Below, in pieces: positions 31,892-36,788 of a stretch of 64,000 nt of DNA. Numbering within the stretch: position 1 is the stretch's first letter; every line of letters starts with the position of its first letter. The stretch comes from Deltaproteobacteria bacterium (GTDB lineage: Bacteria; Desulfobacterota; Desulfobacteria; Desulfobacterales; JAFDMD01): assembly GCA_019306065.1 (NCBI GenBank), contig JAFDMF010000003.1, positions 1 to 64,000 of the forward strand. The letters are read 5' to 3'. The notes under the pieces were generated by a model, which saw only the letters and a list, made by a program, of their open reading frames with translations, was not told the origin of the DNA and ran no database searches. A program made the position numbers and the translations under genes.

Positions 31892-32059
31892 TTAATCGGT
31901 TTTATGTTCAATTAAAATTTTTTCTGATGTTTTTTTTTCGCTTGTCACCTGACAATTAGATTCTTTTAGTCAGGTTGAAATTCCGAATTTTGGCAAGATG
32001 TATGCCTGTAATAAAAACCATAATCCGAAAATAGCTAAAATTATTAGTAGTTGTTTCAT
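31892..32059 (-). CDS. Candidate small membrane selenoprotein with in-frame TGA
   Basis: A 55-codon gene from ATG 32057-32059 to TAA 31892-31894, interrupted only by TGA at 31970-31972 (codon 30). Before the TGA there is a single membrane helix (MKQLLIILAIFGLWFLLQAY) followed by ILPKFGIST. After it the same frame runs on with LKESNCQVTSEKKTSEK and closes at HKTD. Sec at codon 30 would lie six residues before a Cys. A hairpin starting 14 bases after the TGA fits bacterial SECIS rules. AGGATAATAAT precedes the ATG, and the gene lies nine bases after tsaC. yqeC, a selenium-related gene, is 2 kb upstream. If TGA is a stop, the product is a 29-residue membrane peptide. Confidence 0.65.
31942..31955 (-). 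promoter_or_regulatory. SECIS-like hairpin after the in-frame TGA
   Basis: On the minus strand UUGUC-AGGU-GACAA forms a 5-bp stem with a tetraloop. The loop lies 20-23 bases after the UGA and has a G in its first two positions. These values fall in the range used for bacterial SECIS elements (loop about 16-37 bases downstream). An alternative 7-bp stem, ACCUGAC/GUCAGGU, would include the UGA itself. Confidence 0.5.
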
Positions 32060-32068
32060 ATTATTATC

Positions 32069-32698
32069 CTATATTTTTATTATTTGTTCTGCGGGAATCG
32101 AGCCTTCTCTTAATATTTTGATTTTGTTTTTTTTATCCGTAACATCAATTACTGTGGAGCCCTTGCCCCCTTTTAATTTTCCTGCATTTATTATTAGGTC
32201 GAAATTTTCAATGAAGTTTTTGTCCGCATTTTTTATTTCAGATATTGCAGGCGTCCCGGATATGTTTGCGCTTGTTGCGGTTATGGGAAATTTGGCAGAT
32301 TTTGCAATAGCCGCGGCTATCGGATGCGCCGGCAGTCTGATTCCGATTTTTTTGTCGGGAGCAAGTATCGGGTTTACTGTTTTTGCGGCGTTGAATATGA
32401 TTGTAAGTCTGCCTGGCCAAAATTTTTCCATAAGGGCTTCCGCAATATCCGGTATTTCTAAAACAAGTTTTTTAAGATCGTTTTTGTTTTTAATTAATAT
32501 TAAAATCGGCATTGAAAGTAAACGTTTTTTTATTTGAAAGATTTTTTTAACCGCATGAGGATTAAAAGCGTTTGCGCCTATGCCGTAGAGGGATTGGGTA
32601 GGAAATATTATGATTTTTCCTTGTTCTAATGTTGAAATCGCTTTTTTTATTAATTTGTGGTCGATGTTTTTTTTGTCTGTTTTAAATATGTTGTTCAC
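32069..32698 (-). CDS. tsaC: L-threonylcarbamoyladenylate synthase
   Basis: 209 residues of the YrdC/Sua5 family, which makes threonylcarbamoyl-AMP for tRNA t6A37. IIFPTQSLYGIGANAF, KKRLLSMPILIL, FWPGRLTIIF and TATSANISGTP are conserved. The start is GTG at 32696-32698, overlapping the end of purD by 17 bases. It is followed by the small selenoprotein candidate. Confidence 0.93.
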   Translation of the reverse strand: MNNIFKTDKKNIDHKLIKKAISTLEQGKIIIFPTQSLYGIGANAFNPHAVKKIFQIKKRLLSMPILILIKNKNDLKKLVLEIPDIAEALMEKFWPGRLTIIFNAAKTVNPILAPDKKIGIRLPAHPIAAAIAKSAKFPITATSANISGTPAISEIKNADKNFIENFDLIINAGKLKGGKGSTVIDVTDKKNKIKILREGSIPAEQIIKI

Positions 32699-34138: not shown

Positions 34139-34873
34139 CTATATAATAATTGTTGTAATATCAGGTGATCTTTTTTTTATTTTGTTTGCTATGTTTAAAG
34201 CCAGTTTTGTTTTATTTGTGTGTCGCGCTTTATTTAGCAGTAATATTTTTTGGCATAAAACCGGGGTTTTTGCAAAGAGTCCTTTTTTTGATAATATTAG
34301 TTTGGTTATTATTTTTTCGTTTATTTTTGCGCCGATTTTGGAGTTTGTTATTTGGCAAAATATTTTGGCTCTATGAACATTGTTTTCTTCTATAGTTGTT
34401 CCTATTGCGTCTATTCCTATTATTCCGAATGCTGTTGTAGTGGCTTGCGGAATAATAGGTTCGTATTCTGCGGAGGCTTTTATAGGTTTTTGTTTTGCGC
34501 CGTCTGCTTCTACAAGTATGATATCGAATTTGTTTTGCGCAAAAATTTTATTTATGTATTCGGGCTTGCTTCCTATGATTTTTTTTTTAAAATCCGGCTT
34601 TTTGCCGAGGCATGTTATTGTGCCGTTTTTGATTTTGTTTAAAAGTTCGGGATTGTCCGACGCGTCGAATATAAAGGTATCGCAGCCGTTGTCTTCACTC
34701 GGAAATAGGATTTTTGTAGTTGTGGTTATTAAAACTTTGTTGCCGAGTTTTTTAAATTTTTTTGCCAGATTAAACATTGTAGTTGTTTTGCCTCCCGCGC
34801 CTACAAACGAAATTAGAGAGGGGTTTTTTATTATATTTATGAGTTGTTTGTAATTTGATATTATCTGAGGCAT
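34139..34873 (-). CDS. yqeC: YqeC-type selenium cofactor biosynthesis protein
   Basis: 244 residues. A P-loop FVGAGGKTTTMFNLA lies near residue 24, followed by VLITTTTKILFP and ILVEADGAKQKPIKA. This pattern matches YqeC, a putative NTPase linked to selenium-dependent molybdenum hydroxylases. No hydroxylase gene lies in the window. Its closeness to the selenoprotein candidate supports selenium use in this organism. Confidence 0.82.
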   Translation of the reverse strand: MPQIISNYKQLINIIKNPSLISFVGAGGKTTTMFNLAKKFKKLGNKVLITTTTKILFPSEDNGCDTFIFDASDNPELLNKIKNGTITCLGKKPDFKKKIIGSKPEYINKIFAQNKFDIILVEADGAKQKPIKASAEYEPIIPQATTTAFGIIGIDAIGTTIEENNVHRAKIFCQITNSKIGAKINEKIITKLILSKKGLFAKTPVLCQKILLLNKARHTNKTKLALNIANKIKKRSPDITTIII

Positions 34874-34931: not shown

Positions 34932-36788
34932 TTATTCTGCAAATTTGCATTTAAGGATTAACATGTCATCTTCTATTGCTTTGGTTGTTTTGTAGCCTAC
35001 GGAATTAAATAGTTTTATCATTCCTCTGTTGTCCGGCGAGGTGTATGCTACGAATCCTTCTATGTTGTTCATTTTTGCCGCATAAGCAAGTTTTTTGATT
35101 AATATTTTTCCAAGTCCTTTTTTTTGGAAGTTTTTGCTTACGGAAAAGGCTATTTCTGCAAATCCGGTATCTTTTTCCAAAAAGTATTCTCCTATTGCTT
35201 CTACTTTTCCAAAGCCGAATTCTCCGATAACCGCAAGTATTGTTAGGTTGTTTTGATAATCTATTTGAGATATGTCTTTTATTTCGTCGCTTACGAAGCT
35301 GTTTTTTTTGTGAAAGAATCTGGATATTACGTCTTCCATATTAAGGCTGTAAAAATGTTCTTGTATTCTTCTTTCGTCAACCGGTTTGGATGGGCGTATT
35401 GTAAGTTCGGTATTTTCTATTTTTATTATTTCTTCTAATCTTAGCGGGTATGTTCCGTAGATAAATTTGGATGCGGAGTATTTTTCGGTAAGCAGCCCCA
35501 TTTTTTTTGCATTGTAAAGCAGCTCTTCTCGGAATTTGGGATGAGCAAGGCTTATCATAGCTATTGCTCTTTCTTTTAGGCTTTTTCCGAACAGGCTTAC
35601 GGCCCCGTATTCGGTGGCAACATAATGAACGTCCTGTTTTGGTATTATTACGCTTTTGTCTATTAAGGGAACTATTCGGCTTTTTGTTTCGTTTTTTGAG
35701 GCGGATGTAAGCATTATTATGGGTTTGCCTTGTTTGGACATTGAAGCGCCTCTTAAGAAGTCCGCCATAGCGTTTACGCCGGAAAAGTTGTTGTATGGAA
35801 AAGCGTCCGCCGCAACCTGTCCTGTTAAATCCATAGCGGTGGCTACGTTTAAAGCCGTCATTTTATGGTTTTGAGCTATGATTGCGGGGCTGCATACATA
35901 ATCTGCGGGGTAGAATTTAATTTCCGGGTTGTTATTTAAAAAATCGTATAGATGTTTGCTTCCTATTGCGCTTGTAGCTATGGTTTCGCGGGGATGAAGG
36001 TTTTTTTGTTTATTTGTGATGATTCCTTCCGCCAAAAGATACATTATTTCGTCTGTCATGTATTGGGTATGCAGACCCAGATTGTTTTTGTCTCTTAAAG
36101 CTATAAAAAGGGCTTCCGGTATTGTGCCTAATCCTATTTGTATTGTTGCGCCGTCGTCTATAAGTCTTATGACATGCTCTGCTATTATAGAGGCGGGTTT
36201 TAATTTTGGCGGATTGCCTCTGTTTAAAAGCGGCTCTTCATATTCTACCAGAGCGTTTATTTTATTTATATGTATAGCTGTTTCCCCTAATGTTTTAGGC
36301 ATTTTGGGGTTTACTTGGGCTATAACTATATCTGCGGATAATGCCGCTATTAGGGTTATATCTACGGATATCCCCAAACTCATGTGGCCTGAATCATCCG
36401 GCGGAGATACCTGTATAAAAGCGGTATTTATATGCATTTTTTTGCTTTTAAAGAGCATTGGAATCGAAGATAGGTTTAGGGGCGTAATGCAACGTTTGTT
36501 TTTTGCCAAGATTGTAGAGGCTGCCGAGCCTGTATAAAAGGATCTTATATTTAAGCCGGCATCTTGGGTTTTGTTCGCAAGCAGGGTTAAAGGAACGGTT
36601 TCTAACGATAATGTTCTTACTATTTCTATGTCCGTATAGTTATGAGCAATGTTTGCAAAGCCTCTTAAAAGATGCTGGGGTTCGCCGCAGCCTGTGCCTA
36701 TAAATATTCTTTGACCGGATTTTATTAAGCTTAAAGCTTTTTTCAAACTTACGGTTTTTTCTTTATATGTATCCCGCCAATTGTTCAT
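34932..36788 (-). CDS. Acetyl-CoA hydrolase/transferase fused to a GNAT acetyltransferase
   Basis: 618 residues. The first 430 are a class I CoA-transferase/acetyl-CoA hydrolase: GTGCGEPQHLL, the central IGLGTIPEAL, and VATEYGAVSLFGKSLKERA near the C-terminal end of this part. The last 150 form a GNAT domain with VSKNFQKKGLGKILIKKLA as the acetyl-CoA loop and NRGMIKLFNSVGY. Such fusions occur in Desulfobacterota. The fusion suggests coupling of CoA-ester exchange to protein or small-molecule acylation; the substrate is unknown. Confidence 0.85.
   Translation of the reverse strand: MNNWRDTYKEKTVSLKKALSLIKSGQRIFIGTGCGEPQHLLRGFANIAHNYTDIEIVRTLSLETVPLTLLANKTQDAGLNIRSFYTGSAASTILAKNKRCITPLNLSSIPMLFKSKKMHINTAFIQVSPPDDSGHMSLGISVDITLIAALSADIVIAQVNPKMPKTLGETAIHINKINALVEYEEPLLNRGNPPKLKPASIIAEHVIRLIDDGATIQIGLGTIPEALFIALRDKNNLGLHTQYMTDEIMYLLAEGIITNKQKNLHPRETIATSAIGSKHLYDFLNNNPEIKFYPADYVCSPAIIAQNHKMTALNVATAMDLTGQVAADAFPYNNFSGVNAMADFLRGASMSKQGKPIIMLTSASKNETKSRIVPLIDKSVIIPKQDVHYVATEYGAVSLFGKSLKERAIAMISLAHPKFREELLYNAKKMGLLTEKYSASKFIYGTYPLRLEEIIKIENTELTIRPSKPVDERRIQEHFYSLNMEDVISRFFHKKNSFVSDEIKDISQIDYQNNLTILAVIGEFGFGKVEAIGEYFLEKDTGFAEIAFSVSKNFQKKGLGKILIKKLAYAAKMNNIEGFVAYTSPDNRGMIKLFNSVGYKTTKAIEDDMLILKCKFAE

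Follow-up and report, generated by a model that had tools for sequence, protein, structure and literature searches.

Within the window, by which we mean the entire 64,000-nucleotide stretch of DNA that was analysed, a gene of 55 codons occupies positions 32059 to 31892 of the minus strand. Its frame begins with ATG at 32059, encounters a TGA at codon 30 (31972-31970) and continues for 25 further codons to a TAA at 31894-31892, and these coordinates agree with those of the interrupted frame proposed in a preliminary description of the locus. A plus-strand reading of 31892-32059 was dropped because stops occur throughout that strand. Two genes named from sequence flank the frame on the same strand: tsaC (threonylcarbamoyl-AMP synthase, 32069-32698) lies 9 nt upstream, and rplU (ribosomal protein L21, 31464-31778) lies 113 nt downstream. 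A putative Shine-Dalgarno sequence, AGGA (32067-32070, minus strand), overlaps the tsaC stop codon. Elsewhere on the minus strand of the window, an ORF at 34139-34873 resembles YqeC, a protein linked to selenium-dependent molybdenum hydroxylases, and a large ORF at 34932-36788 is, from its sequence, acyl-CoA transferase/hydrolase-like with a C-terminal GNAT acetyltransferase fusion.

Based on the reading frame and its homologs, we annotate 31892-32059 as a selenoprotein gene. With TGA read as U, the predicted product is a single-pass membrane protein of 55 residues (MKQLLIILAIFGLWFLLQAYILPKFGISTULKESNCQVTSEKKTSEKILIEHKTD). The membrane helix that had been noted earlier is located at the N terminus both by hydropathy (2.5; residues 4-22, positions 31994-32050) and by AlphaFold2 (residues 2-24, pLDDT about 89). 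No thioredoxin domain was detected by Pfam, and the AlphaFold2 model consists of this one helix and a disordered tail, making it uninformative past the helix. Codon 30 (UGA, 31970-31972) is read as selenocysteine (Sec) on the basis of the in-frame TGA in homologs and of Cys in four distant ones. An invariant second cysteine, Cys36 (TGT, 31952-31954), falls within the 5' arm of a putative SECIS core hairpin, UUGUC-AGGU-GACAA (31942-31955, loop at 31947-31950), which was assigned from family covariation and codon bias. An open frame after a TGA is not, by itself, unusual in the window, where, with all frames taken together, 25 or more open codons come after 311 of the 1481 TGAs (21%). The gene is raised above this chance level because its homologs share the in-frame UGA and because the SECIS pairs covary.

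A translated search in which TGA was read through detected the protein in 51 of 58 near relatives, and the matches without an in-frame TGA were only weak extra rows of one genome. Wider searches, using a profile built from 30 members, identified a family member in 308 of the 390 class genomes and 179 of the 395 phylum genomes, with an in-frame TGA in every match listed for them. Cysteine replaces Sec in four distant homologs, L047-L050 (LPKLGIPTCMSRSC, LPKLGIPTCMSGAC, LPKFGVPTCLSNSC, LPKLGIPTCMSRNC), all of which retain the second Cys. Residues L22, P23, G26, T29, Sec/Cys30 and Cys36 are invariant across the Sec and Cys forms, and family comparison reveals conserved sequence on both sides of the in-frame UGA. 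Residues 1-37 are well conserved and the tail past Cys36 poorly so; when congeners are compared, non-synonymous codon changes outnumber synonymous ones in the part after the UGA. The preliminary description had looked to relatives with Sec or Cys at position 30 and conservation beyond it, and such relatives were indeed found. Its opposite scenario, in which all homologs end at the TGA without a conserved downstream part, is not the case, given the invariant Cys downstream. The U-x5-C arrangement that it described holds for the window genus and a few others, but not for the family, in which U-x4-C is the norm. One locus (L045:1501-1900) carries the selenoprotein gene twice in tandem, each copy with an in-frame UGA, and a sigma factor comes next.

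The consensus for bSECIS elements comprises a stem of 4-16 bp and a loop of 3-9 nt with G in the first two loop positions, located 16-37 nt from the UGA and having a free energy of -7.5 kcal/mol or lower (PMC13188914, Fig. 2). The stem-loop reported earlier is present at the same site in the window, with its AGGU loop beginning 19 nt past the UGA, and this loop, its spacing and the 5-bp stem place the window copy within the consensus geometry. The hairpin (TTGTC-AGGT-GACAA at 31955-31942) is nonetheless weak, since its -4.0 kcal/mol in the bSECIS scan misses the consensus of -7.5 kcal/mol; the congeners score -10.7 and -8.9. A competing 7-bp stem that includes the UGA is favoured in a wider local fold of the window copy.

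A hairpin of bSECIS geometry is present in 85 of the 85 family members scanned (distinct Sec loci). At -5 kcal/mol or better, such an element occurs in 81 of these 85 members compared with 58 of 201 TGA stops of neighbouring ORFs (p about 1e-27, where p-values overstate independence because the family sequences are related). At -7.5 kcal/mol, the corresponding counts are 63 of 85 and 42 of 201. Covariation of the stem was evaluated with 71 distinct aligned sequences, which contain 43 doubly changed cells and yield a score of 0.254 versus 0.153 when shuffled. None of 500 shuffles reaches 0.254, and slid pairings all score lower. For example, pair 18-25 is U-A in 50 sequences and C-G in 17, and pair 15-28 is C-G in 39, U-A in 20 and G-C in 2. 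Codon choice hardly varies where the frame overlaps the SECIS: Gln is encoded by CAG in 77 of 77 cases, Val by GTG in 57 of 62 and Thr by ACA in 52 of 55, against background usages of 0.69, 0.29 and 0.20, respectively. Because QVT is missing from the Cys homologs, this motif is probably dictated by the RNA, being kept by RNA structure and not by protein function.

The preliminary description had pointed to selA, selB, selC and selD as the genes expected of a Sec-decoding genome. This expectation is borne out for selA (E 7e-177), for the tRNA-Sec gene selC (72 bits) and for selD (G000:C47:82510-83433, outside the window), which contains a single in-frame TGA and is a further selenoprotein gene. 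It is not borne out for selB, of which not even a fragment was detected in the 93%-complete assembly of the window species, although both congeners carry it. Of selB and selC, whose absence the preliminary description named as a refutation, only selB is missing here. The essential gene tuf (EF-Tu) is likewise broken off at contig ends in this assembly, and therefore an assembly gap is the simplest explanation for the missing selB. Contig-end pieces resembling SelB were rejected as EF-Tu. NagZ, a neighbour of selB in G001, is internal to contig C15 here with other genes beyond it, and no contig-end cut occurs there. Across the phylum, the gene is present in 168 of 352 genomes with selB versus 11 of 43 without (p 0.006, hand-counted), an association that reaches significance yet is weak, since selB is present in almost every genome of the phylum. 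Among the genomes with the Cys form, selB is present in two of four and is thus not uniformly absent.

Taken together, the sequence comparisons make it very probable that the gene encodes a real selenoprotein, with Sec inserted at the UGA of codon 30. The small membrane selenoprotein originally proposed is favoured by homologs carrying UGA or Cys, by the covarying SECIS and by selA, selC and selD in the genome. Sec would be inserted via the standard bacterial route, using SelA, SelB, SelC and SelD together with the SECIS 19 nt downstream. The resulting protein would comprise an N-terminal membrane helix, a turn with the sequence LPxxGxxT, a Sec-x4(5)-Cys pair located at the surface of the membrane, and a tail that is short and charged.

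Short membrane peptides exist, and the locus could instead encode one of 29 residues that ends at the UGA, with the downstream frame and hairpin being incidental. Such a peptide is compatible with the frequency, counted above, at which TGAs in the window precede 25 or more open codons, and with the absence of selB from the assembly. However, the strong homologs all have UGA, not UAA or UAG, at this position and four others have Cys, and both the invariant Cys 5-6 codons beyond the UGA and the SECIS covariation argue against an incidental downstream region. We therefore regard the 29-residue peptide as extremely unlikely. The family might also be one of true selenoproteins of which the window copy is decaying, the species having lost Sec decoding with selB. 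Apart from the missing selB, this reading draws on a hairpin in the weakest class, on the extra codon between Sec and Cys, on the move of the window copy to a place beside tsaC and on the excess of non-synonymous change after the UGA. Against it, selA, tRNA-Sec and the UGA-containing selD are intact in the genome, residues 1-37 are well conserved, and both congeners have selB and strong hairpins despite sharing the extra codon. The broken tuf, moreover, indicates that gaps strike essential genes in this assembly. Decay of the window copy is accordingly judged very unlikely.

The mean charge rises from 0 before the helix to +1.6 behind it, and by the positive-inside rule this positive flank suggests that the Sec side faces the cytoplasm. 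The link to tsaC in the preliminary description was confirmed within the window genus, to which this adjacency is restricted, but does not extend to the family, whose neighbours vary by lineage. Genes frequently upstream at loci of the class encode a 4Fe-4S protein, a small membrane protein like a b-type cytochrome subunit, MobB or a heavy-metal P-type ATPase; an ECF sigma factor and a zf-HC2 anti-sigma are frequent downstream. At L030:2140-3054 and 18 further loci (cluster c3), the gene is directly preceded by a conserved pair encoding a 4Fe-4S protein of TAT type and a small membrane protein to which Pfam gave no match. Thioredoxin-type neighbours are present at a minority of loci. The Cys form of L048 lies between a thioredoxin and a DsbD_TM-thioredoxin, that of L049 has a TlpA-like neighbour, and that of L050 has rhodanese and metallo-beta-lactamase-rhodanese neighbours. 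Thioredoxin adjoins the gene in L104, L107 and L122, and a thioredoxin reductase (named by sequence only) does so in L116. The distribution of the gene and its neighbours suggest that the window species belongs to a sulfate-reducer-type lineage of Desulfobacterota.

Because thiol/sulfur redox neighbours accompany distant members, we favour a membrane-anchored selenol/thiol redox relay as the most likely job of the protein, a proposal that we hold with about even confidence. In this relay, the thioredoxin system would reduce a selenenylsulfide formed between Sec and the nearby Cys, and electrons would be handed on to a partner in the membrane or periplasm, for instance a carrier of the DsbD/CcdA type. 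The leading alternative is a role in metal handling. The Sec/Cys pair might bind a metal, for example copper, and serve in metal export or sensing instead of thiol redox chemistry, as could be indicated by the P-type heavy-metal ATPase that adjoins the gene at several loci (cluster c12; L152) and by the ArsR regulator and permease next to it at others. Yet the other known occurrences of Sec are mostly at redox sites (PMC13188914), and the thioredoxin, thioredoxin reductase and DsbD_TM neighbours occur in distant lineages, making a metal-binding role unlikely.

In 23 distinct loci of relatives (L024:1622-1665 and 22 others), the frame of an ECF sigma factor begins inside the selenoprotein gene, in the +1 frame. 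The sigma start is located 34-40 nt past the U of the UGA and 9-15 nt past the SECIS loop AGGUGA, a sequence that is Shine-Dalgarno-like. Several of these loci have no alternative in-frame ATG, GTG or TTG within the next 120 nt. The window copy lacks an overlapping sigma gene. It is conceivable, although we consider it somewhat doubtful, that the SECIS of these relatives also serves to switch a transcription programme in a selenium-dependent manner. In such a switch, AGGUGA would be sequestered in the SECIS hairpin; ribosomes decoding the UGA as Sec would open the hairpin and permit synthesis of the sigma factor, and those stopping at the UGA would not. The pair formed by the sigma factor and its zinc-finger anti-sigma would in this way be responsive to selenium or to the redox state. 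The overlapping start makes a direct link from selenium to transcription testable. In the open-access papers searched, we found no report of such a sigma start. A SECIS-like hairpin in the E. coli selAB leader has been proposed to control translation initiation of the downstream gene. The arrangement described here similarly places a SECIS-type hairpin before a downstream start, but it differs in that the SECIS is part of a selenoprotein's coding region and that it is an ECF sigma factor whose frame starts downstream.

Neither the 30 Sec members nor the four Cys members searched had a significant match in NCBIfam or Pfam, and PDB and Rfam gave nothing significant for the family. Proteins of the PP0621 family are small and have one N-terminal helix followed by cysteines. 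The present family (compared with NF041023) shares this layout, but assignment to PP0621 was rejected because only one of 30 members gave a match, which was weak and non-significant (E 0.15), and because the motif differs. Neither the motif LPxxGxxTUxxxxC nor the single-helix membrane architecture appears in any of the 119 prokaryotic selenoprotein families tabulated in a May 2026 review (PMC13188914). The initial view of the protein as possibly undescribed agrees with the results from NCBIfam, Pfam, PDB and the review table. Judged against these databases and the open-access literature, these proteins apparently constitute a new family of SelB/SECIS-decoded selenoproteins.

This family is large and apparently overlooked, being present in roughly 80% of the sampled class genomes and 45% of those of the phylum, and standard annotation would end such genes at the UGA. 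Its members would be membrane proteins as well as among the smallest selenoproteins, two features that are unusual together in bacteria, judging from the review table (PMC13188914) and general knowledge, and QVT would represent an amino-acid motif apparently maintained by RNA structure.

Among recently predicted selenoproteins of sulfate reducers with no known domain are DG, DW and DF (deep-Sep, PMC12013277). DG carries the motif GUxG, DW carries GxU, and DF is without TGA homologs in other organisms (PMC12013277). The present family differs from DG and DW by motif and, unlike DF, has hundreds of TGA homologs. As in the catalogued bSECIS selenoproteins (PMC13188914), an in-frame UGA is followed 16-37 nt downstream by an AGGU-type apical loop, Cys homologs exist, and Sec lies near a second Cys.
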